Source: a virus. Taken from it: a stretch of DNA of 35,916 bases. Positions 26,286 to 35,916 of the stretch are shown here, in pieces. The number at the start of each line of letters is the position of its first letter. Positions within the stretch are counted from its first letter, which is position 1. The notes beneath the pieces are model-generated. The model saw nothing but the letters and a program-made list of their open reading frames with translations. It was not told the DNA's origin and did no database searches. Position numbers and translations under genes: made by a program. The stretch lies in IMG/VR virus record IMGVR_UViG_3300009503_000059, positions 1 through 35,916 of that record, one strand, 5' to 3'.

Positions 26286-26546
26286 TCACTCCATCCACAT
26301 CACCCAAACCTCATACCCCTCCCCCTTTAATCGCTCCTTCACAGCCTTCAAACAATCCTCACACACCAATAACATCCTATCCCCGTCAAAATAACAAAAC
26401 CCCTTACCCTTAAAGTCAAATCCCTTCCCGCATTTCCCACATACCGCACACCCAGAAATACTCAAACCCTCTCTCCTACGCCTCCTCAACCATACCCCCA
26501 CACCCCTTAACCCCAATTTCCTCAAAAACTTCCTCCTTACTTCCAT
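26286..26546 (-). CDS. Small zinc-finger protein in the origin hub (86 aa)
   Basis: ATG 26546 has GGAGGT 7 bp upstream; a TTG five codons earlier is less likely. The N terminus is very basic (RRKFLRKLGLRG, LRRRRREG). A four- to six-cysteine pattern follows: CAVCGKCGKGF around residues 33-43, then C52 and CEDC near 63-66, as in a zinc ribbon or treble clef. The end is Trp-rich. Codons end mostly in G (AAG, GAG, GGG), unlike neighbouring genes that prefer A. A weak TTGATT...TATAAG pair (15-bp spacer) lies upstream. A DNA-binding role at the hub is inferred. Confidence 0.6.
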   Translation of the reverse strand: MEVRRKFLRKLGLRGVGVWLRRRRREGLSISGCAVCGKCGKGFDFKGKGFCYFDGDRMLLVCEDCLKAVKERLKGEGYEVWVMWME

Positions 26547-27007
26547 CTCTATTACCTCCAATCTCTTATTCTCTCTATATCTTATAACCCCTATTCTCTT
26601 AAATCAATCACTAAAAACCACTGACCCCAAAAAATATACCCGCCAAACGCACAGAATTGGGCTTATTTTTAATGAACTACCCCGACCCCCTATCACAACC
26701 CTCCCCCCTAAAAAATCCCGATTTTTCCAATATCAATTTTCAAAAATGCCCGCCAAAATTCACCAAATAGGTCTAAATTCAAAAATCTCATTTTCCATGC
26801 CGATTCCACCAATACATTTCCACCCCTATAAAAACGATAAAAATTCGTTAAATATGCTTCTCTAACTCCTATATCTGACCCTATGTATGGGCAAAAATGG
26901 GGGGTGGTGGGGGCTTCGGGCTTCTGGACGGCATGCCGTTATGCTGGTATACTGGTCAATCAATGCGATGTATTCTGCCTCATATTGACAATGTCCGATA
27001 ACACACA
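26547..27007. other. Gene-free origin hub, left part
   Basis: No believable gene. The plus strand stays poor in G to about 26730. It then holds AAAAATC-CC-GATTTTT (an inverted repeat around 26710-26725), two CCCGCCAAA copies (near 26640 and 26750), a G-run (GGGGGGTGGTGGGGG near 26899-26913, a possible G-quadruplex) and the 12-bp palindrome ACGGCATGCCGT at 26928-26939. Confidence 0.6.
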
Positions 27008-27052
27008 TTATGTAAAATAGACAAAAAACTAACGATTTTTCAGGAACTTATG
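27008..27052 (+). repeat. 45-bp imperfect direct repeat, copy A
   Basis: Begins TTATGTAAAATAG, contains ACGAT and TTTCAGG, and ends TTATG. It matches 27301-27345 at about 37 of 45 positions, with conserved ends and centre. Confidence 0.8.
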
Positions 27053-27054
27053 AG

Positions 27055-27144
27055 TTTTCCACAGACTTTTCCACAGGTAGGAATTTTTGTATAAGTGGCT
27101 ATTTTATGAGGACTTTTCAAAAGTTTTCCACAGGTTTTCCACAG
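27055..27144 (+). promoter_or_regulatory. Four DnaA-box-like TTTTCCACAG sites
   Basis: Copies at 27055-27064, 27067-27076, 27124-27133 and 27135-27144, all in the same direction and in two close pairs (12- and 11-bp steps). They differ by one base from the common bacterial DnaA box TTATCCACA; TTTTCCACA is used as a DnaA box in some bacterial lineages. Confidence 0.7.
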
Positions 27145-27186
27145 ATATTTTTTAATAAAATGACAATACATATATTTTCACTACTT

Positions 27187-27243
27187 CAAAAATTTTCTCA
27201 GTAGGAGAGATAATTTTCCCAAAAATTTTCTCTGTAGGAGAGA
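27187..27243 (+). repeat. Two 24-bp direct repeats
   Basis: Copies at 27187-27210 and 27220-27243, differing at one base; each reads CAAAAATTTTCTC, one variable base, then GTAGGAGAGA. They are spaced 33 bp start to start (about three helix turns). Confidence 0.85.
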
Positions 27244-27300
27244 CATTTTGCAATCATCGGCTGTTCAAGTTCTTACAATTTTTTAGACTAATTCTAAATG

Positions 27301-27345
27301 TTATGTAAAATAGGATAAGAACTGACGATATTTCAGGCGGTTATG
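27301..27345 (+). repeat. 45-bp imperfect direct repeat, copy B
   Basis: Partner of 27008-27052. The two copies enclose the DnaA-like boxes and the 24-bp repeats. Confidence 0.8.
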
Positions 27346-27358
27346 TTAAGAATTTAAA

Positions 27359-27400
27359 GTGTCAAAAATTTGACAGTGGGTGTCAAAAATTTGACAGTGG
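27359..27400 (+). repeat. Two perfect 21-bp tandem repeats with inner inverted repeat
   Basis: Units 27359-27379 and 27380-27400 are identical. Each contains TGTCAAAAATTTGACA (7-bp arms, 2-bp centre). A 21-bp spacing puts both on the same DNA face, as for dimeric repressor or initiator sites. The second copy ends in TTGACA, which could also act as a -35. Confidence 0.85.
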
Positions 27401-27446
27401 TCATTTTAGGGGTAGATAAGGGCTAGTATGGGGTTTTTGTGGGGTA

Positions 27447-27477
27447 TTGAAAAGAAAAATACAATAGTAGGTATATA
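27447..27477 (+). promoter_or_regulatory. Probable plus-arm promoter
   Basis: TTGAAA at 27447-27452 and TATATA at 27472-27477 with a 19-bp spacer (18 if GTATAT is used), which is suboptimal. The spacer contains GAAAAATACA, the element seen upstream of four other genes. The predicted leader of about 70 nt includes CCCCACCGC-TTTT-GCGGGGGG, a hairpin-like block (27508-27528). Confidence 0.45.
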
Positions 27478-27554
27478 GAAGGCGGGGAAGCCTTCCGGCC
27501 CGTAAGTCCCCACCGCTTTTGCGGGGGGCAGGGCAAGAAAATGGAGAGGATAAA

Positions 27555-28595
27555 ATGGAGAAGGAGAAGAATAGAAAATATGGAACGAAGATGACCCCTT
27601 GCGGGGTCAAAAAGTTTTTAGCCTCCCTTCTAAAAAGGGAGGCAAAAGAAGTCCCCGCAGTATTTCTGTGGGGACCCCCAGGGATAGGGAAATCGTCTAT
27701 CGTAAAACAGGTTGCTGAAGAGAAGGGAATTGAGATAATAGACGTTAGGCTTTCATTGTTAGACGCAATTGATTTGCGGGGAATACCCGCAACAGAAGGA
27801 AAAAATTGTTTCTGGACTCGTCCACCTTTTATACCAGAAAAAGGAAATGGAATCCTCTTTTTAGACGAGTTGAATACGGCGTCTCCCTCTGTCCAGAACA
27901 GCGCCTTGCAGCTTGTGCTGGACAGAAGGGTGGGGGAGCACAAGCTGGGAGATGGGTGGTACATCATTTCAGCTGGGAATCGGTTAGAGGACTCGTCATT
28001 AGTTTTTCAACTTGCCGACCCTCTCATATCGCGATTTATTCACATTGAAGTTGAAATCAATATAGATGAATGGATAGCATGGGCAATGAAAAACGAGATA
28101 AATGAGCGGATTATTGGATTTCTCAAGTTCCGTCCAGATTTGTTATCAAGAATTAATGAGAATAGGAATTCAATAAACTTTCCCTGCCCTAGAACATGGG
28201 CATTTGCATCAACCTTAATGGGGTCAGGAATTGACCCCGTAGAGGCTGTTGAAAGTTCAGTAGGCACAGGAGTATCCGCGGAATTTAGTGGATGGCTAAA
28301 GGTGTATGATAAACTTCCCGATGTAGAAGAAATATTGGATGGCAAAAAAGAGTTGAAATTGAGTGAATACGAACTCTCGGTTCTATGTGCGTTAGGACCA
28401 ATTTTAGTTTTACGAGCGAATACTCCTCAACGACTTGAAAACCTGTTAAAAATACTTACAAATATTGAAAGGAAGTGGGGAGTATATTTTTCAACTCTTC
28501 TATTTGCGAAATTTGAAAAAGAAAAAATTGTACGATGTAAAAATTGGAAAAGGTTTTATACACAATATTCTGATATTCTCTTTGAAGAAGTGTAA
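27555..28595 (+). CDS. MoxR-type AAA+ ATPase (346 aa)
   Basis: I choose ATG 27555 (GGAGAGG upstream) over a TTG 12 codons earlier. Motifs: Walker A GPPGIGKSS (about 39-47), Walker B GILFLDELNTA (about 98-108), sensor 1 ISAGNR (138-143), arginine finger DPLISRF (155-161), and a helical lid domain to the end. The pre-Walker B 'RPPFIPEKG' and 'VRLSLLDAIDLRGIP' segments are typical of MoxR/YehL-like members. These remodelling ATPases act with VWA partners to assemble or activate other complexes. The next gene, 12 bp downstream, encodes such a partner. The 5' 700 bp contain several perfect hairpins. Confidence 0.9.
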   Translation: MEKEKNRKYGTKMTPCGVKKFLASLLKREAKEVPAVFLWGPPGIGKSSIVKQVAEEKGIEIIDVRLSLLDAIDLRGIPATEGKNCFWTRPPFIPEKGNGILFLDELNTASPSVQNSALQLVLDRRVGEHKLGDGWYIISAGNRLEDSSLVFQLADPLISRFIHIEVEINIDEWIAWAMKNEINERIIGFLKFRPDLLSRINENRNSINFPCPRTWAFASTLMGSGIDPVEAVESSVGTGVSAEFSGWLKVYDKLPDVEEILDGKKELKLSEYELSVLCALGPILVLRANTPQRLENLLKILTNIERKWGVYFSTLLFAKFEKEKIVRCKNWKRFYTQYSDILFEEV

Positions 28596-28607
28596 GGAGG
28601 TGTAGAA

Positions 28608-30188
28608 ATGGAAAAAGCGATGAAAAAAATAGAGAAGGCAATAATAGACCTTCTCTGTGAACAACCTTTTTTTGGAACACTACTTTTGGAAATAAAAATT
28701 GAAAAAGCCGACCCTTCTCTTCTATGTCCTACAATGATAGTCTATCCTCACGGAATTATTCGTTTTAACGAGGAATTCGTGCTCACGCTCACAAATCCTC
28801 AACTTAAAGCGGTTCTTTGCCATGAGATTTTACATCTTGCTCTACTTCATTTTGTTCGTCAGGCGACAAGAGACAGGAAGGTATGGAATATAGCAACTGA
28901 CCTTGAGATCAATGGGTATTTAGCAGAAAATAATTTTTCGCTTCCGAGTGCAGCTTTGATTCCCCCGCAAGATAAAAGAGGTTTGAGTGCAGAGGATTGG
29001 TATAAAAAGTTGCTTGAAAATCCGTCAATGATTCAAGAAAAAGTGATGGATGTTCATATCTATGATGATGAAATTGAGCAAGCACAAAATGAAAATCAAA
29101 ATCAAGGCAAACAAAATCAAAGCAATCAAGGACAAGAACAAGAGCAAAAACAAAAGCAAGGTCAAGGGCAGGATAGTCAAGGTCAAGGACAGGATAGTCA
29201 AGGTCAAGGGCAGGATAGTCAAGGTCAAGGACAGGATAGTCAAGGAAATCAAGGCAAACAAAATCAAAGCAATCAAGGACAAGAACAAGAGAATGAAAGT
29301 CAAGATGGTAATCAAGGGCAAGATGGTCAGGGGCAAGATGGTCAGGGGCAAGATAAGAAAAAAGTAAAAAAAGAAGGAGATAATAAAAAAAGTGATGAAA
29401 ATGGAAAAGAAAAAGAGGGTGATAGAAGTGGAAAAGGCAATAAAGGTAAGAAAAAAATAAAAGAAGAAGGTGATAAAAGTGGAAAAGAAAAAAATGGCGA
29501 AAACAAAGGAAAAAAGAAAAATGAAGGAAGGAAAGATGAGGAGAATGACATTATAAAGAAGTGGAAAGACGCTTTGGCAAGAGCAGTTAACCTCGCAAAG
29601 TTGCAAGGGAAAATGCCTACGGGATTGAATGGTGTTATTGAAAAAATTTTACGCCCTCAACTTGACTGGCGACAAGTATTACGGCAGTTTATTACAAAAA
29701 TTGTAGGGGATGTTGACTGGTCAAGGAAGGATAGAAGGTTCAAAGATATATATCTTCCTCAACATCGCGAAAAAGTAATTGAACTTGTAATAGCAATTGA
29801 TACATCGGGGTCAATCAGAAAAAATGAATTTGAAAAGTTTTTCGGCGAGGTAAACGGAATTCTTCAATCAAACGGGAAATACAAAATCCATCTTGTTCAA
29901 TGCGATGCGGATATTCAAAAGGTAGAAGTGATTTCATACCCCAACAAGTTGCCTGCCGATAGAATAGAAATCAAGGGACGGGGCGGGACAGACTTCCGCC
30001 CCGTTTTTGAATACATGAGAAAAAACCATCTTCAGATTCCACTTATCTATTTCACTGATGCTCAAGGGACATTTCCTTCTTCCCCGCCGACTTTCCCTGT
30101 CTTGTGGGTAATTACTGAAGCAAAAAGAAAAAAAGATATTCCGTTTGGAAATGTAATTATTTTAGATTTAGAAAAAAAGGAGGATTGA
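28608..30188 (+). CDS. DUF2201-like protein: zinc-peptidase-like plus VWA domain (526 aa)
   Basis: ATG 28608 has AAGGAGGTG upstream. Domain 1 (1-125): CHEILHLALLHF with HEILH at 72-76, and NIATDLEIN at 94-102, the zinc-protease-like signature of this family. A low-complexity linker (about 155-320) is rich in Gln, Gly and Asp, then Lys/Glu. Domain 3 (about 335-526): VWA with a MIDAS made of DTSGS (398-402), a Thr in GGTDFRP (about 459-465) and D in YFTDAQG (about 482-488). It pairs with the MoxR ATPase directly upstream. An archaeal virus (Acidianus two-tailed virus) has a MoxR-VWA pair proposed to shape virion tails; here the pair heads the early arm instead. The target is unknown. Confidence 0.88.
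   Translation: MEKAMKKIEKAIIDLLCEQPFFGTLLLEIKIEKADPSLLCPTMIVYPHGIIRFNEEFVLTLTNPQLKAVLCHEILHLALLHFVRQATRDRKVWNIATDLEINGYLAENNFSLPSAALIPPQDKRGLSAEDWYKKLLENPSMIQEKVMDVHIYDDEIEQAQNENQNQGKQNQSNQGQEQEQKQKQGQGQDSQGQGQDSQGQGQDSQGQGQDSQGNQGKQNQSNQGQEQENESQDGNQGQDGQGQDGQGQDKKKVKKEGDNKKSDENGKEKEGDRSGKGNKGKKKIKEEGDKSGKEKNGENKGKKKNEGRKDEENDIIKKWKDALARAVNLAKLQGKMPTGLNGVIEKILRPQLDWRQVLRQFITKIVGDVDWSRKDRRFKDIYLPQHREKVIELVIAIDTSGSIRKNEFEKFFGEVNGILQSNGKYKIHLVQCDADIQKVEVISYPNKLPADRIEIKGRGGTDFRPVFEYMRKNHLQIPLIYFTDAQGTFPSSPPTFPVLWVITEAKRKKDIPFGNVIILDLEKKED
29099..29144 (+). repeat. 46-bp direct repeat inside the VWA gene, copy 1
   Basis: Identical to 29246-29291. Both lie in the Gln/Asn-rich linker and encode NQGKQNQSNQGQEQE. 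The copies bracket the 21-bp tandem array. Confidence 0.9.
29160..29243 (+). repeat. Four tandem 21-bp units coding GQGQDSQ
   Basis: Units start at 29160, 29181, 29202 and 29223. They alternate at one base (GGG/GAC versions of the middle codon area), so units 1 and 3 match, and units 2 and 4 match. This suggests stepwise duplication of a 42-bp pair. Copy number is likely to vary. Confidence 0.9.
29246..29291 (+). repeat. 46-bp direct repeat inside the VWA gene, copy 2
   Basis: Identical to 29099-29144. Recombination between the copies would delete the tandem array in frame (147 bp, 49 codons). Confidence 0.9.
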
Positions 30189-30189
30189 A

Positions 30190-30684
30190 ATGGAAGAGAA
30201 AAAGGAAAAGGAGACGATTGAAATGGAAAAAAAGAAAAAGGTAAAAATATTTTTAAAGTGCCTGCCCTCCGCTCAACTTTTTTTTGAGGTGGTGGGGGAA
30301 TACATATTCAACCTTTATAATACTCTTTTCAAGGAAGCCCCTGAAATTATTGCTATAGTTGACGACGAAAAGTGGGAATTACATTATGAAAATTCACAGG
30401 CATTGCGAATGCTTCACAATAATGACAAACCATTATACCTTGATATTGAAAATTCTAATAACAGGATTAAATTAAGTAGTTGCGTGGTTAAGGAGAAAAT
30501 AAACGAAAGTGTTTCACCCGAACAAAGTTTACAAGTAGTTACAGAGATTGAGAATTTGATATACGATATTTACGAAGCATGGAGCAAGGCGGAGGAAAAA
30601 TTGCAAGAAATCCTTAGAAATGATAAACGCTTCTCAAAATTGATGGAAGAAAAATTGATTAAAAAATTATCGGGGGCGAAATAA
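30190..30684 (+). CDS. Unknown MoxR-VWA-associated protein, paralog A (164 aa)
   Basis: ATG 30190 (AAGGAGG upstream) starts 1 bp after the VWA stop; an in-frame ATG at 30223 has its own GGAG. After a charged start comes VKIFLKCLPSAQLFFEVVGEYI, then strands (IIAIVDDEKWELHYE), an SLQVVTEIENLIYDIYEAW helix and a basic C-terminal helix ending LSGAK. It is clearly related to the next gene along its whole length. No known family was recognised. Direct coupling to MoxR and VWA genes suggests a client, cofactor or inhibitor of that pair. Confidence 0.75.
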   Translation: MEEKKEKETIEMEKKKKVKIFLKCLPSAQLFFEVVGEYIFNLYNTLFKEAPEIIAIVDDEKWELHYENSQALRMLHNNDKPLYLDIENSNNRIKLSSCVVKEKINESVSPEQSLQVVTEIENLIYDIYEAWSKAEEKLQEILRNDKRFSKLMEEKLIKKLSGAK

Positions 30685-30689
30685 ACTTC
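30618..30689 (+). repeat. 72-bp perfect direct repeat, copy 1
   Basis: Identical to 31200-31271. It covers the last codons and stop of paralog A. The rest of the two genes differs strongly, which points to recent gene conversion or strong constraint on this end. Confidence 0.95.
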
Positions 30690-30704
30690 AAGGAGGCGAT
30701 TGAA

Positions 30705-30737
30705 ATGGAAAAATGGGAAAATTGTATTGAAAAATAG
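30705..30737 (+). other. Ten-residue ORF with strong ribosome site between the paralogs
   Basis: AAGGAGG stands before an ATG that opens MEKWENCIEK and stops. The same AAGGAGG-(C)GATTGAA-ATG block starts other genes here (30190, 32794). It is probably a remnant start from the duplication, or a leader peptide coupling to paralog B. It is not annotated as a gene. Confidence 0.4.
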
Positions 30738-30780
30738 TATTATTAGAGCGAGGATAGGTGAAAGTAAGGAGAAAAAAGCG

Positions 30781-31266
30781 ATGGACAAAAAAGTGACGGG
30801 AGAAAAAAAAGTGATAAAAATATCATTGAACTCACTTCCGTCTGCCCAGGCATTCAAAGAATTTGTGGCAGAATATCTGTATTACTTGTATGGAAATCTT
30901 TTTAAAGATAGCAATACAATTAAAATAATAATTGGTAAACAAAAATGGGAATTAAAATATTCATCTTCTTCTTCATCTTTATTACAAATTTATTTGTATG
31001 ATGATACGAACAGAACATCTTATCTTGAAATAAAAAAATATAGCAATGGATTTGCCTTGAATACTTGCGAGGTGAGGAATAAAATAGAAGAAGGTTCAAT
31101 AGAAGAAGCCTTACAAGTAGTCACAGAAGTAGAGAAATTATTATATGACATTTATGAGATATGGAGAAAAGAAGAAGAAAGATTACAAGAAGTTTTTAAA
31201 AATGATAAACGCTTCTCAAAATTGATGGAAGAAAAATTGATTAAAAAATTATCGGGGGCGAAATAA
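30781..31266 (+). CDS. Unknown MoxR-VWA-associated protein, paralog B (161 aa)
   Basis: I choose ATG 30781 (AAGGAG upstream), which aligns with the start of paralog A; a TTG 27 codons earlier is unlikely. It shares IKISLNSLPSAQAFKEFVAEYL, KQKWELKY, ALQVVTEVEKLLYDIYEIW and an identical C-terminal stretch with paralog A. The middle has a Ser-rich loop (YSSSSSSLL) absent from A. Divergence outside the 72-bp identical end shows an old duplication with recent homogenisation. The last codons also form the 5' arm of a terminator. Confidence 0.75.
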   Translation: MDKKVTGEKKVIKISLNSLPSAQAFKEFVAEYLYYLYGNLFKDSNTIKIIIGKQKWELKYSSSSSSLLQIYLYDDTNRTSYLEIKKYSNGFALNTCEVRNKIEEGSIEEALQVVTEVEKLLYDIYEIWRKEEERLQEVFKNDKRFSKLMEEKLIKKLSGAK

Positions 31267-31271
31267 ACTTC
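31200..31271 (+). repeat. 72-bp perfect direct repeat, copy 2
   Basis: Identical to 30618-30689. In this copy the next bases complete a terminator hairpin, which the first copy lacks. Confidence 0.95.
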
Positions 31272-31286
31272 TTCGCCCCCTTTTTT
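31254..31286 (+). terminator. Intrinsic terminator overlapping the stop of paralog B
   Basis: GGGGGCGAA and TTCGCCCCC form a 9-bp stem with a 9-nt loop, followed by six T. The 5' arm encodes the last Gly-Ala-Lys and part of the TAA stop. It should end the MoxR-VWA-paralog transcript; the small genes after it need read-through or their own promoter, and I found no clear promoter. Confidence 0.9.
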
Positions 31287-31296
31287 AGGTGAAGAT

Positions 31297-31539
31297 ATGA
31301 AGAAGGTAAGATATGGCAAAGATTGGGAGGAATTCAAGAAGAAGGTCATCAGGACCTTTTGGGAGAGGGTCCGGGAGGAGGAAAAGCAAAAGCAAAAAAA
31401 GAAAAAAAGGAGGAAAAAGAAGGGGGAAATGCCGGCGATATATTATGAAAAATTACAGGAAATCATAAATAAAGAAATCTTTGGAATACCTTCTTATGTC
31501 TCTGAAGACCTCGCTTTCAGGCACGATGATGATGAATAA
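31297..31539 (+). CDS. Small Lys-rich protein, unknown (80 aa)
   Basis: ATG 31297 has AGGTGAAG upstream. A basic first half with a long Lys/Arg run (KQKQKKKKRRKKKGE) is followed by a helical part and an acidic end (RHDDDE). No motif was recognised. The C terminus overlaps the start of the next gene by up to 14 bp, so they are coupled. It is the first gene after the terminator. Confidence 0.6.
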   Translation: MKKVRYGKDWEEFKKKVIRTFWERVREEEKQKQKKKKRRKKKGEMPAIYYEKLQEIINKEIFGIPSYVSEDLAFRHDDDE

Positions 31540-32089
31540 AGGGAAAATCTTAATAGTTATCTATATCCTCACTTCAATTTTTGTTTCTGCTTACCTCATC
31601 TGGCTAAATTCTCATCAAGAGCCTGAAATCCGCATAATAGAAAAACCTGTCTATGTGGAAGTGGAAAAACCGAAATATATAGAAAAAATCAAAAAATATC
31701 CCGTGGAAATTTCAAAGGTTGTGGTTTTGGAGAAAGAGAAGATTGTTGAAAAGGAGAAGCTTCCTGAATGGCTATCCGGGGCAACGGAATATGTCATTCT
31801 TGCTATTGGTGATGTTCAACCTTACAGAGGAAAAACCCGCATAATCTCTTTATTGAACACAAAGACGGGTGAAGGTTTTCTCATTCAAAAACAACTTCCC
31901 TATTCCGAACCTCTCTTTCAATTCAAATGGGATTTGAGAGTAGGTGGAGGCTGGGATTTTGTCAATCAAAGCGGAATAGGGAGGTTGGACTTTGATTTCC
32001 TGAAAATTTCAAAAGTTAATTTCTCCTTGACAGGAGAGGTTGAAAAGGATAGAATCAAAGGAGGAATTTGGATATGGATAAAATTCTAA
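31526..32089 (+). CDS. Membrane-anchored protein with one N-terminal segment (187 aa)
   Basis: Three ATG codons in a row (31526, 31529, 31532) are possible starts; all overlap the previous stop. Residues about 7-27 form one membrane segment (ILIVIYILTSIFVSAYLIWL). A Glu/Lys/Val-rich extended stalk follows (IEKPVYVEVEKPKYIEKI), then a compact beta-rich domain (about 85-187) with VGGGWDF and GGIWIWIKF. The shape (inner-membrane anchor, rigid stalk, outer domain) resembles phage spanin-like or envelope-associated proteins. Family not recognised. Confidence 0.65.
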   Translation: MMMNKGKILIVIYILTSIFVSAYLIWLNSHQEPEIRIIEKPVYVEVEKPKYIEKIKKYPVEISKVVVLEKEKIVEKEKLPEWLSGATEYVILAIGDVQPYRGKTRIISLLNTKTGEGFLIQKQLPYSEPLFQFKWDLRVGGGWDFVNQSGIGRLDFDFLKISKVNFSLTGEVEKDRIKGGIWIWIKF

Positions 32090-32295
32090 AATTTATATGC
32101 AGAGATTGTCTTTATAAGCACAAGATTAAACATCCAGAGCATACCTGGCCTATAAAAGAATTTCCACACAACTATGTGTGGATAGACGGGGAAAAATACC
32201 TTTTGGTTGAAAAGGACTATGAGGTAAAATGTTCGGAATGCGGAAAAAGAAATAAGAAAGTCTATCAGTTGTTGTCAACAATAAAAAAATGGTAA
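32074..32295 (+). CDS. Small zinc-ribbon protein (73 aa)
   Basis: I choose ATG 32074 (AAAGGAGGAATT upstream), inside the end of the previous gene. C-x-x-C pairs lie at CRDC (about 9-12) and CSEC (about 53-56), with HPEHTW and HNYVWIDGEKYLLV between, a plausible zinc ribbon. The end is basic. It is one of four tiny Cys-bearing proteins in a row. Confidence 0.65.
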   Translation: MDKILKFICRDCLYKHKIKHPEHTWPIKEFPHNYVWIDGEKYLLVEKDYEVKCSECGKRNKKVYQLLSTIKKW

Positions 32296-32314
32296 ATTAA
32301 AAGGAGGTGATAAA

Positions 32315-32545
32315 ATGACAGAACAAAAAACAATATGGGCAAGGTATTATAACGCATACGGGTTTGCTGTGGCAATAGTAGCAGTTGTCACAGAAGGAAT
32401 TGACTGGACGGCTTACATAGGTGCTTCTCATAATTTGATGACATCAGAAGAAACTGCTGAATGGGTTGCAAAGAATGGTTGTAAACTGGCAAAAAAAGAT
32501 GCTGTGCATTTCTTTCCTGACATAGACCTTCCTTACAGGGAATAA
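32315..32545 (+). CDS. Small unknown protein (76 aa)
   Basis: ATG 32315 has a near-perfect AAAGGAGGTGATAAA upstream. An alpha/beta pattern: IWARYYNAYGFAVAIVAVVTEGIDWTAYIG (in part), then EETAEWVAKNGCKL and DAVHFFPDIDLPYRE. It is compact, with one Cys and several Trp/Tyr. This resembles small phage proteins with 'A-x-W-x-x-x-G-x-K-[LV]...FP..' endings that occur in early regions of other phages, function unknown. Confidence 0.65.
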   Translation: MTEQKTIWARYYNAYGFAVAIVAVVTEGIDWTAYIGASHNLMTSEETAEWVAKNGCKLAKKDAVHFFPDIDLPYRE

Positions 32546-32567
32546 TATGGCGATAGGAGGTGCTGAG

Positions 32568-32792
32568 ATGAAAATTATTTACAGGAGAATAATAGGAAAA
32601 GAAGATGAAAATTTCAGAATTCAAGAGTATGTTATAGAATATGATCCTTTAGAAACAAATAGGAAAAAATGTTCTATTTGTGGTGAAGTATCAACCTCTA
32701 TGTATATGTTGGATATTTTTTACAAAAAAAACTTTTTAGTTAGTATTGATTTGTGCGAAAAATGTTGGCTGGAAAAAATAAAGGAGGATTGA
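32568..32792 (+). CDS. Small zinc-binding-like protein (74 aa)
   Basis: ATG 32568 has AGGAGGTGCTGAG upstream, which argues against the earlier ATG at 32547. Two CxxC pairs: CSIC (about 35-38) and CEKC (about 63-66), separated by a Met/Tyr/Phe-rich strand pair (TSMYMLDIFYKKNF). The N-terminal half is a beta-rich segment. Probably a zinc ribbon; partner unknown. Confidence 0.65.
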   Translation: MKIIYRRIIGKEDENFRIQEYVIEYDPLETNRKKCSICGEVSTSMYMLDIFYKKNFLVSIDLCEKCWLEKIKED

Positions 32793-32793
32793 A

Positions 32794-33066
32794 ATGAATA
32801 AATCAATAGTGATGCTGTATTCTTTTTTGGCGACAATGAGTGAGGACAATGACGATACTATGGAAAAAATACTTGAAAAATGGATAGAAAATCCGGAAAA
32901 ATACTATTGTCTTTGTTGCGGAGTTGAAATATCTGAAGAACAATTTTGTTATTCTCATGGGTTCTGTGAATATTGTGATAGTGGTGCTTGTCAAACTGCA
33001 CAATTTGTTTTCAAAAAAGGACATGGAAAGTTTTTGAAATTGTTTCTTATTCGTGAAAATGATTAA
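32794..33066 (+). CDS. Cys-rich small protein (90 aa)
   Basis: ATG 32794 follows the previous stop by 1 bp and has AAGGAGG. A helical acidic start leads into a dense Cys/His region: YYCLCCGVEISEEQFCYSH, then FCEYCDSGACQ (about residues 37-67), enough for two zinc sites. The end is basic and hydrophobic. Its stop overlaps the next start. Confidence 0.65.
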   Translation: MNKSIVMLYSFLATMSEDNDDTMEKILEKWIENPEKYYCLCCGVEISEEQFCYSHGFCEYCDSGACQTAQFVFKKGHGKFLKLFLIREND

Positions 33067-33298
33067 GGTTTTATTGATAATTTTTACCCTTCTTTTTCTT
33101 TTTATAGTTTATCTAATGATTTTCTCACTTTGTAAAGTGGCTAAAAAATCCGATGAGAAGATTGAGGAAATGCTTCATGAGCAGGAAAAAGGAGATTGCC
33201 TCTCTTGTGTATTATATCAAACGATGAGTTGCCCTCTAAAACCTGTATATCCCATGAAGGATTGTCCATATTATATTCCTTTAATTCCTTTTGCCTAA
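33059..33298 (+). CDS. Small membrane-anchored Cys protein (79 aa)
   Basis: ATG 33059 overlaps the previous stop by 8 bp, so it is translationally coupled; no clear Shine-Dalgarno. Residues 3-25 form a membrane segment (IKVLLIIFTLLFLFIVYLMI). After a charged linker comes GDCLSCVLYQTMSCPLKP and DCPYYIP, with five cysteines in all. The tail could bind a metal or form disulfides if outside the cell. Confidence 0.6.
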   Translation: MIKVLLIIFTLLFLFIVYLMIFSLCKVAKKSDEKIEEMLHEQEKGDCLSCVLYQTMSCPLKPVYPMKDCPYYIPLIPFA

Positions 33299-33428
33299 AA
33301 TAAGATATGCTTTATTCTAATCAAAATGACCTTCTGTTTGTTTATTGTTTCATCTTCGCTGGCTGGTGTATTATTTTTTCTTTTTTTATTGCTTTGGTTT
33401 TAATAATAGTATAAACTTAAAACCTCAA

Positions 33429-33710
33429 ATGAGCAGTAAATATCACAAAGGCAGACGCTATGAATATAAAACAATAGATATGCTCAAAAAGGCTTCTTAT
33501 GAAGTTATGAGGAGTGCGGCTTCAAAGGGGAATTGGGATGTAGTGGCGTGGTGCCCGCAGTTAAAAATAATAAGATTTGTTCAAGTAAAATATGTAGGTA
33601 AGCAGAAACAAAAATTGAATAGGATAACTGAATTTGAAGAAGATGGCTGGAAAGTGATTTTTGAAATTTTGAAGTGGGGAAGTAAAAAGAAATCAAAGAA
33701 TAATGATTAA
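33429..33710 (+). CDS. Hjc-type Holliday junction resolvase-like nuclease (93 aa)
   Basis: I choose ATG 33429; the longer frame upstream is only hydrophobic noise. Pattern of archaeal Hjc/phage resolvases: KGRRYEYKTIDMLKKASYEV with E12, RSAASKGNWDVVAW with S32 and D37, and FVQVKYV with Q52-x-K54. The usual Glu of the E-x-K pair is Gln here, a change that could lower activity or shift metal binding. At 93 residues it is shorter than typical Hjc (about 120), missing C-terminal strands. A TATAAA at 33410-33415 suggests its own short-leader mRNA. Predicted to resolve branched replication DNA before packaging. Confidence 0.75.
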   Translation: MSSKYHKGRRYEYKTIDMLKKASYEVMRSAASKGNWDVVAWCPQLKIIRFVQVKYVGKQKQKLNRITEFEEDGWKVIFEILKWGSKKKSKNND

Positions 33711-33732
33711 AGGCGGGCTTTCAAACCCGCCT
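33711..33732. terminator. Hairpin between convergent arms, possible bidirectional terminator
   Basis: AGGCGGG and CCCGCCT form a 7-bp stem with an 8-nt loop, right after the resolvase stop. Short T-rich runs lie on the minus side (TTTAATCATTATT) and A5 on the plus side. It stands where the two gene arms converge. The T tract is weak, so efficiency is uncertain. Confidence 0.55.
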
Positions 33733-33762
33733 AAAAATGGGAGAAAAGGAGTGTGGCTGCAG

Positions 33763-34011
33763 TTATGGAAAATTACTTTTTATTTCATTCAAAATCTTTT
33801 TTATGTCTTCTAAAAGATTTTTAATTTCTTCATACCTTATTCGCGAGCGTTCCTCGTGAAACTCAAATTGGGCTTTCACTCTTTCAATTATTCCATTAGG
33901 ATTATTATTCTTTTTAGAGCTCATATTTTTAATTATATCAAAAATTTCTTTTAAAATCAAAAATATAATTCCCGACAAAATACTAATAGATATTGCATTT
34001 GCTTCATTCAT
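33763..34011 (-). CDS. Small membrane protein with charged coiled coil (82 aa)
   Basis: ATG 34011 overlaps the end of the ATP-grasp gene by 8 bp. Residues about 7-26 form one membrane segment (ISISILSGIIFLILKEIF); the rest is a charged helix with heptad-like repeats (IRYEEIKNLLEDIKKIL). This resembles small phage holin-associated or XhlA-like proteins, but with the membrane segment at the N terminus. It is the last gene of the minus arm. Confidence 0.6.
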   Translation of the reverse strand: MNEANAISISILSGIIFLILKEIFDIIKNMSSKKNNNPNGIIERVKAQFEFHEERSRIRYEEIKNLLEDIKKILNEIKSNFP

Positions 34012-35329
34012 TTTCTATCCATCCCCATTCTTTTAGTTTCTCATACCTTTTGATGGCAGATTGACCGCTATCATTCCTGTATTGAATGTTAGAAACTTTT
34101 ATAAATTTCACATAAGCAAACACTTTTGAAACTGCTTCCTGAATAGTATTTCCTATTTCAACCAATTCACCCACAATCCCATCGTAACCTGCTAATTCAT
34201 ATTTTTTATTCCTTCGCCGCACATCAAGTAAATAAAAATTCTTTTTCAAAATCTGCTCTGGGAATTCAAGAGGTAAATTTTCAACTACATTTTTGATTTC
34301 ATTGTTCTCTTCAACTTGTAAAGTATTTGCAGGATAGGGATAAGTTGTTATTCTTAATGCAAAGCTGAATTTATCATAAAAAACAGGCAATTCCTGTAAA
34401 GTTCCTGAAAGTAATCTAAAAAATACATTTATAAGAGGTTCATTTAATAAATGTTTCCATGCATAAATAGCATTATACCCAAATCTGGGAGTAATCTCTA
34501 AAAAATATGCTTTATGGTCTTTCTCCGAAACAATACAATTGAAATCTATGGGGCCAGTATAATCAAAGTTTTTCATAACAGGGATAAAATGCTGAAAAAT
34601 CTGACGATACGGTCTACATAGAAAAGTATTTTTCCAATTAAAAACAACCGACGACATACATCCCACATTACAGCCTAAATCACCTGCTAAAAATCGCTTT
34701 TCCTCAAATGTAGAATTCAAAGGTGGAATAAATCTTCCATGAGAAAACCATGCTTCCGTTGAAATCTCTACTCCTGAAATAAATTCCTGAACTACAATCG
34801 GAAGATTTAAAATTCCTTCCTGAATTTTTTCTTTTGCTACTTCATATGCTTCTTCACCATTCTCGCATATAATAGTGTTCTCTACAGCTCCTGCTCCCTC
34901 TTCTTTTATAACACATTTTTTGTTTTTGACTTGGTCTAAAATAATAGGTAATTGCTCTAAATTTTGAATATGAATTGTAAAAGGCACAGGAATTGATAAT
35001 TTCCGCACTAACTCAATTGTTTTCCATCTCTGTGTTTCAAAATTCCTCATCCCTGTTGTAGAACCTATAACAAGATAACCTCTCTGCTGTAATTCACCCG
35101 CTAATTTATCATTCAAAGCACTTTCAAATACAAATACAGTGTCTTTTCTGTCAAATTTATTCAGAGGCGGGAGAATAGGCACAATAGGAACTATATTTTT
35201 ATATACCCTTTGTTTCCAGCATAATTTATTTTTGTAATAAACAACTAAAACTTCTTGCTGGAAGTCATCCTGAAATTCTTTCGCAATTGGCAATAAATCT
35301 CCTACATCACTTATAAAAACCCATCTCAT
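34004..35329 (-). CDS. PurD-like ATP-grasp ligase of unknown substrate (441 aa)
   Basis: ATG 35329 overlaps the stop of the giant ejection gene by 4 bp. An N-terminal Rossmann-like part (residues 1-100) is followed by the ATP-grasp fold: CVIKEEGAGAVENTI (139-153) as the nucleotide lysine loop, VVQEFISGVEISTEAW (179-194), GDLGCNVGCM (216-225), which matches the GD-x-G-P-N-T-G-G-M signature of phosphoribosylamine-glycine ligase (PurD), and YFLEITPRFGYN (275-286) with metal-binding E278 and R282. A C-terminal domain (about 320-441) fits the family. No other purine gene is present and all neighbours are virion genes, so it more likely modifies a peptide or virion protein than makes purines. Confidence 0.8.
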   Translation of the reverse strand: MRWVFISDVGDLLPIAKEFQDDFQQEVLVVYYKNKLCWKQRVYKNIVPIVPILPPLNKFDRKDTVFVFESALNDKLAGELQQRGYLVIGSTTGMRNFETQRWKTIELVRKLSIPVPFTIHIQNLEQLPIILDQVKNKKCVIKEEGAGAVENTIICENGEEAYEVAKEKIQEGILNLPIVVQEFISGVEISTEAWFSHGRFIPPLNSTFEEKRFLAGDLGCNVGCMSSVVFNWKNTFLCRPYRQIFQHFIPVMKNFDYTGPIDFNCIVSEKDHKAYFLEITPRFGYNAIYAWKHLLNEPLINVFFRLLSGTLQELPVFYDKFSFALRITTYPYPANTLQVEENNEIKNVVENLPLEFPEQILKKNFYLLDVRRRNKKYELAGYDGIVGELVEIGNTIQEAVSKVFAYVKFIKVSNIQYRNDSGQSAIKRYEKLKEWGWIENE

Positions 35330-35916
35330 CGCTCAAGCCTCATCTCTCGCATTTTCTCAAAAATTTCTTCCCATCTGCCTTTCATATATTTTTGACGAGT
35401 CCATTCCGGTAAAGTTTTTGCTTTCTGAAGTTCTGCAGGCACTTGTGCTCCCCTTACTCTGGTTTCTAATACTCTTTGTAGTGAGTCAAGAAACGCCTTT
35501 TTTCTTTCTTCAGGTTGATTACTACTATTTATGCGTTTAAGTGTTATAAATAACCTTCGCCGATACTCATCCCAATCAGGTAATCCTTTTGCAATCCAGT
35601 TCGCTGTTTCCTCCACACTTGTTTTCATATTCTCTATTGCTTCCTGCATTGCAAAGTCCTTTTCCCGTTCCATCATCGTTTTATAGTTTATTCCAAATAG
35701 CATTGTTTTAATAGCATCTGCAGCAGGATTATCTGAAACAAAAGTAATTCCTTTACTCCTTAAATCTTTTGTTGCTCCGCCCCACAACATTTTATTGTTA
35801 AAAATATACCACGCATCGTGCAAATTTTTTGCTGTAACACCCCATTTCGTTTCAAGTTCACTGAAAATCTCTTTAATCGCCTCATCCCAGGGAATTTCTG
35901 CCTTGTATTTCCTTAA
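35326..35916 (-). CDS. Giant ejection/polyvalent virion protein, C-terminal end (same gene as 1-4548)
   Basis: This is the 3' end of the 1,671-residue gene. Bases 35794-35916 repeat the first 123 bases, and bases 35793-35326 encode the last 155 residues. The segment is helical and strongly charged, with many Arg/Lys-Glu pairs near the C terminus (ends MREMRLER). An apparent start at TTG 35823 is an internal Leu codon, not a gene start. The stop codon overlaps the ATG of the downstream ATP-grasp gene by 4 bp, so the two are translationally coupled. Confidence 0.85.
   Translation of the reverse strand, partial: LRKYKAEIPWDEAIKEIFSELETKWGVTAKNLHDAWYIFNNKMLWGGATKDLRSKGITFVSDNPAADAIKTMLFGINYKTMMEREKDFAMQEAIENMKTSVEETANWIAKGLPDWDEYRRRLFITLKRINSSNQPEERKKAFLDSLQRVLETRVRGAQVPAELQKAKTLPEWTRQKYMKGRWEEIFEKMREMRLER
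35794..35916. repeat. Right copy of the 123-bp terminal direct repeat
   Basis: Identical to bases 1-123. Collapsing the two copies gives a circle of 35,793 bp. A real terminal redundancy is not excluded, but phage terminal repeats do not usually sit inside a continuous coding frame. Confidence 0.95.

Follow-up and report, generated by a model that had tools for sequence, protein, structure and literature searches.

Background

In pairs of a MoxR-type AAA+ ATPase and a partner with a VWA domain, the VWA protein in general grips a target and MoxR drives the conformational change (PMC7159879). Viruses carry such pairs as well, as exemplified by a cyanophage (PMC9964418) and a haloarchaeal virus (PMC7911831). 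The N4 pair is encoded by gp24, listed as unknown, and gp25, listed as a vWFA domain (PMC4193335), and the pair of jumbo phages has been described as a chaperone-cochaperone system (PMC7824862). In Acidianus two-tailed virus (ATV) p618 and p892 interact, and a role in tail development was concluded from this interaction (PMC4124505). Here we describe a MoxR-VWA operon in the IMG/VR virus record IMGVR_UViG_3300009503_000059, a small tailed phage whose 35,916 nt were analysed in full (in the following, the window). Two paralogous genes, here called A and B, follow the pair. The core pair is already known. The main new result is that the cassette is exchanged between related phages, and the duplicated ORFan partners are unusual.

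Exchange of the cassette between related phages

The four genes and the exchanged segment around them are the following (aa, amino acids).

27555..28595, + strand: MoxR-type AAA+ ATPase (phrog_1297; N4 gp24-like), 346 aa, ATG start, from motifs and profiles
28608..30188, + strand: DUF2201 metallopeptidase-linker-VWA protein (phrog_1314; N4 gp25-like), 526 aa, from profiles and motifs
30190..30684, + strand: paralog A, 164 aa, from its open reading frame (ORF) and the A/B comparison
30781..31266, + strand: paralog B, 161 aa from ATG 30781, in an ORF open from TTG 30700
26562..33762, strand not applicable: exchanged segment, bounded by the zinc-ribbon gene (26286-26561) and the holin-like gene (33763-34011), from comparison with L088/L252

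Searches with the ATP-grasp enzyme and TerL of the window found one close relative only, L088/L252, which is a single 22.9-kb contig. TerL is 68% and the ATP-grasp enzyme 73% identical between the two, and the tail-side arm 40-73%, with the large tail/virion protein at 73%. The gene order of the contig follows that of the window as far as the holin-like gene and does so again beyond the exchanged segment, starting with the zinc-ribbon gene. The 3.7 kb in between are unrelated to the window and encode a 159-aa protein, an Amidoligase_2 protein and a class-II glutaminase (GATase), all in the same direction. Profiles of VWA and of A/B gave no match anywhere in this contig, from which a large part of the head-gene region is missing. 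Of the relatives that are more distant by TerL, L087 and L106 carry amidoligase and glutaminase, and L086 and L137 carry MoxR-VWA. A clade uniting the window pair with that of L137 was rejected by the approximately unbiased test (p 5e-05; two very long rows, L086 and N4-like, which the first tree had joined, were left out), hence these pairs were acquired separately. The swap in L088/L252, the mixed cassettes among the TerL relatives and the non-sister pairs together indicate that this genome region gains and loses cassettes.

The amidoligase (PF12224) and glutamine amidotransferase cassettes thus share the site in L088/L252 and consist of different proteins; they have been proposed to modify the cell wall or secondary metabolites (PMC10580990). 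Such amidoligase and class-II glutaminase operons were seen on an arm divergent from TerL at L088:4538-6306, L087:9447-12692 and L106:437-4410.

Because the cassette is exchanged while the tail genes stay, the operon would serve an accessory, outward-facing task and not a core virion task, and we find an accessory role somewhat probable on this comparison. Host takeover, defence evasion and virion maturation had all been offered as roles in the initial annotation; the relative, which keeps its tail-side genes next to another cassette, disfavours the last of these, and a host-directed or accessory function seems to fit better. The main rival explanation, which we regard as unlikely, is that MoxR-VWA acts as the chaperone of a tail or a head complex, that the peptidase trims a structural protein and that A and B are clients or scaffold-like proteins. 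Several observations favour it and weigh against an accessory role. The tail precedent from an archaeal virus, already cited in the initial annotation, is indeed found in p618/p892 of ATV (PMC4124505), and a role in virion assembly has been proposed for the jumbo-phage pair by Iyer et al. 2021 (PMC7824862). Further, gp24 and gp25 are core middle genes in N4-like phages, and in RPP1 the pair adjoins a second, mid-expressed module of virion proteins (PMC4193335). The pair of S-TIM66 stands between Hsp20 and a structural gene. It should also be noted that, with much of the head-gene region missing from the L088/L252 contig, MoxR-VWA may sit elsewhere in that genome. Against assembly of the virion stand the exchange itself, with no VWA in the 22.9 kb, and the position of the pair, which is followed by a separate terminator and lies on an arm free of virion genes. 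With a small genome in which the pair is swappable and has a duplicated partner of its own, and a near relative that lacks the pair at the site, an accessory role can be told apart from one in virion assembly.

The MoxR-VWA pair

The identity of the first two genes as a MoxR-VWA pair is hardly in doubt. MoxR has its Walker A (GPPGIGKS), Walker B (ILFLDE) and sensor-1 (AGN) motifs, and R160, taken as the arginine finger, is kept in an alignment of four phage homologs; the profile matches are AAA (4e-08, Pfam) and phrog_1297 (1e-83, PHROG). The partner matches DUF2201_N (8e-40), DUF2201 (4e-29) and phrog_1314 (2e-81). Both its HEILH peptidase motif (H72, E73, H76) and a complete metal ion-dependent adhesion site (MIDAS; D398-x-S400-x-S402, T461, D484) are conserved in the alignment of four phage proteins. 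The complete ATPase and the DUF2201-like protein with intact HEILH and MIDAS residues, as first read from the motifs, were therefore both confirmed, and the E-values of the profiles speak against a chance resemblance. The middle of the partner is a linker of about 175 aa, rich in Q, K, E and G and built of tandem repeats, which is far longer than in the homologs compared. Both phrog_1314 and many phage records give these peptidase-VWA proteins the name 'HNH endonuclease' or 'homing endonuclease'; as the member in the window matches only metallopeptidase and VWA in Pfam, the label appears to be wrong.

Matches to MoxR occur in 850 phage records and matches to VWA in 558. From 80 IMG/VR MoxR loci, 69 contigs had room for a downstream gene, and a VWA gene followed on the same strand in 68 of them (within 200 bp in 60), hence the pair is a known, linked unit of phages. 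Neither A nor B was seen at any of these loci. The genes 3' of VWA vary between phage groups, and by sequence A and B lie outside the recurrent unit. The initial annotation had proposed an autonomous four-gene module, which is not supported in this form, as a great many phages have the pair but lack A and B, and these are known from the present genome only.

In its two protein families, their order and the peptidase-VWA fusion the window resembles N4 gp24/gp25 (PMC4193335), whereas in the N4-like locus examined A/B are missing, the neighbouring genes differ and the linker is short. The jumbo phages have the same pair and domain fusion (PMC7824862), and differ from this 35.8-kb podovirus-like genome, where extra paralogs are present and the pair occupies an accessory site instead of a virion module. 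The archaeal ATV likewise encodes a MoxR and a VWA partner which interact mutually (PMC4124505); however, its VWA protein is reported without a peptidase domain (PMC7824862), and p618 is a component of the virion.

A family without a Pfam match, of about 275-350 aa, was seen at or near MoxR-VWA in L137:6960-7838, L007:2799-3857, L012:11583-12473, L022:4345-5241, L176 and L179. In L137, L007, L012 and the genome loci L176 and L179 its member, of about 290 aa, lies between MoxR and VWA. This family, present in phages and bacterial contigs, is a probable third component that has no name.

Structure of the operon

MoxR and VWA are separated by 12 nt and VWA and A by 1 nt, after which A leads to B. 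The ribosome-binding site (RBS) of A is located inside the VWA gene, and translational coupling of A to VWA is probable. There is no terminator between VWA and A and one after B, and from this layout the four genes very probably form a single operon. The initial annotation of one operon with A and B, which heads the arm opposite the virion genes and ends at a terminator behind the second paralog, agrees with these data. The elements around the genes are as follows.

31254..31286, + strand: intrinsic terminator GGGGGCGAA-ATAAACTTC-TTCGCCCCC followed by T6, from folding; a partner on the minus strand was also found
30618..30689, + strand: 72-bp block of A, perfectly identical to 31200-31271 at the 3' end of B, from alignment
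30705..30737, + strand: 10-codon ORF behind a strong RBS, opened by ATG 30705
27359..27400, strand not applicable: perfect tandem repeat of 21 bp, GTGTCAAAAATTTGACAGTGG in two copies, from a repeat search, with a putative function
27053..27149, strand not applicable: three DnaA-box-like copies of (A/G)GTTTTCCACAG, a repeat family with a putative function

The stem of the terminator (31254-31280) is GC-rich and 9 bp long (dG -17.8), and the stop codon of B falls in its loop. The 72-bp block in A carries only the left arm of this hairpin, which is completed to a terminator after B.

Each copy of GTGTCAAAAATTTGACAGTGG contains the palindrome TGTCAAA-AA-TTTGACA and a TTGACA, and the two copies are probably the operator/promoter of the operon. 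The divergent intergenic region of about 1 kb that holds the (A/G)GTTTTCCACAG copies is a possible replication origin. The stretch 27008-27400 is dense in repeats, with DnaA-box-like TTTTCCACAG copies, 45-bp and 30-bp direct repeats and the tandem 21-bp palindromes, and looks like an origin plus a divergent control region.

Paralogs A and B

The proteins A and B are 54% identical. Outside the 72-bp block their genes are 61% identical, and the perfect identity within it points to a recent gene conversion or a duplication junction. The differences fall mainly on third codon positions (48/39/71 by position), and the non-synonymous and synonymous divergences are 0.41 (dN) and 1.97 (dS, near saturation), which gives a dN/dS of about 0.2, with a pN/pS of 0.45. 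The third-position bias and the low dN/dS indicate that both are real, maintained proteins that diverged under purifying selection. The start of B, first placed at TTG 30700, is probably ATG 30781, which has AAGGAG upstream, the TTG being less likely; the 10-codon ORF at 30705 is probably the former start of B, now out of frame. For A, a second in-frame RBS and ATG at 30223 would give 153 aa, and the two RBS/ATG copies form a 30-bp tandem repeat.

Neither paralog matched a family in Pfam, PHROG, PADLOC, NCBIfam or the PDB sequences, as anticipated when they were described as paralogs of no recognised family. Pfam matches to PAS_8 (0.005) and DUF5365 (0.04) were below the cut-offs and were rejected. 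The predicted structure of A was poor (predicted local distance difference test, pLDDT, 44.9), and the model of B was better (pLDDT 59.8, predicted template modelling score 0.48), with a beta-alpha-five strands-long helix-helix order. Foldseek searches with the predicted fold gave nothing at E <= 0.001, nor did the viral library; a likeness to the PR-10/Bet v 1 helix-grip fold among the top PDB matches (E 0.03, template modelling score 0.29) was too weak for use. The profile and structure searches proposed in the initial annotation thus yielded no homolog.

Homologs of A/B were sought with a two-row profile, tblastn, the family libraries and the PDB sequences. Phage and plasmid records contained none, and neither did the loci around 80 genome relatives of VWA; a profile search of 81 complete related or MoxR-bearing records recovered the window only, as its positive control. 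Pattern scans of viral and genome contigs gave none either; with two rows in the profile and short near-exact peptides required for the scans, remote homologs could have escaped. Scans of viral contigs with patterns from single proteins (VWA, A and TerL) were empty because the peptides chosen were not conserved, and alignments were used instead. The order MoxR-VWA-A-B, which had been suggested as a thing to look for in other genomes, was in no other genome among the records searched, and on these searches the four-gene set is so far unique to the present genome. The 159-aa protein of L088/L252 and a 158-aa protein of L008 were compared as homologs of A/B and rejected. The same applies to L170, a metagenome-assembled genome of Coprothermobacterota, as an instance of the same module, since the two paralogs between its MoxR and VWA are unlike A/B (hhalign probability 0.2). 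These adjacent 154- and 161-aa paralogs (L170:4863-5812) are a second case of duplicated small genes in a MoxR-VWA operon.

What ties A and B to the pair is the structure of the operon. They might be independent passengers that share it with a MoxR-VWA pair acting alone, an explanation we hold as possible though doubtful, and which counts against adaptors of the pair. It would account for the hundreds of phages with the pair but without A/B, and for the different genes after VWA among phage groups. The 1-nt spacing, the probable coupling of A to VWA and the missing terminator between them argue the other way, as do the lineage-specific extra genes of some other MoxR-VWA loci, such as the protein of about 290 aa. 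That A and B work together with MoxR-VWA we consider slightly favoured from these data. As both are placed at the end of the operon, the simplest reading is a dedicated adaptor or cofactor role, and duplication with diversification suits target-facing parts.

A further explanation is a MoxR-vWA ternary conflict system, where the pair would act as the switch, with A/B as paired effectors against rival phages. Those systems likewise combine MoxR, vWA and further component(s) in one operon (PMC7159879), and an exchangeable accessory site would suit them. Unlike in those systems, the VWA protein of the window carries a DUF2201 peptidase, and A/B are unrelated to known effectors, with no match to a Pfam effector or VMAP-type family or to a PADLOC model. 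No Pfam match to VMAP, iSTAND, FtsH or a beta-propeller third component was present in A/B or their neighbours, and the bpMoxR match (24.9 bits) was under its cut-off of 27. We therefore find this explanation very improbable.

Proposed mechanism

We suggest, with about even confidence, that the operon is an interchangeable accessory cassette, at a site that is fixed in this phage group, in which an AAA+ remodelling machine of the MoxR-VWA kind common in phages works with A/B adaptors, most likely on a host or competitor protein. From the gene content and layout we infer use of the promoter/operator, formation of a complex, activity of the peptidase, the adaptor function of A and B and the kind of target. 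The cassette would be expressed from its own regulated promoter, separate from the virion genes. The MoxR ring would hydrolyse ATP, the VWA/MIDAS domain of its partner would grip the target protein, and the fused zinc peptidase may clip what is gripped. After their duplication A and B diverged under purifying selection, and they would serve this machine as dedicated subunits, most likely as adaptors or cofactors which deliver a specific target to it. If that target belongs to the host or a competitor, the role would be takeover, counter-defence or superinfection control.

Further, we speculate that one site in this phage group alternates between two unrelated cassettes that act on proteins, MoxR-peptidase-VWA with group-specific adaptors and amidoligase-glutaminase, for the same job, for instance to block a host pathway or a competing phage, and that A/B are a new paired-adaptor family aiming a phage AAA+ peptidase machine at selected proteins, which is an unlikely conjecture.

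Genome context

The contig ends carry an exact 123-bp direct repeat (1-123 = 35794-35916), hence the assembly is circular and complete at 35,793 bp, and a gene of about 1,670 aa on the - strand spans the circular junction. The virion genes are all on the - strand, which encodes terminase, a podovirus-type portal, the major head protein, tail proteins and endolysin, and also a nuclease of RecE type and a DnaD-like protein. MoxR-VWA-A-B leads the sole + strand arm. The PurD-like ATP-grasp enzyme used in the searches above (34004-35329, - strand), 73% identical in L088/L252, ranks among the genes that this phage group conserves best.

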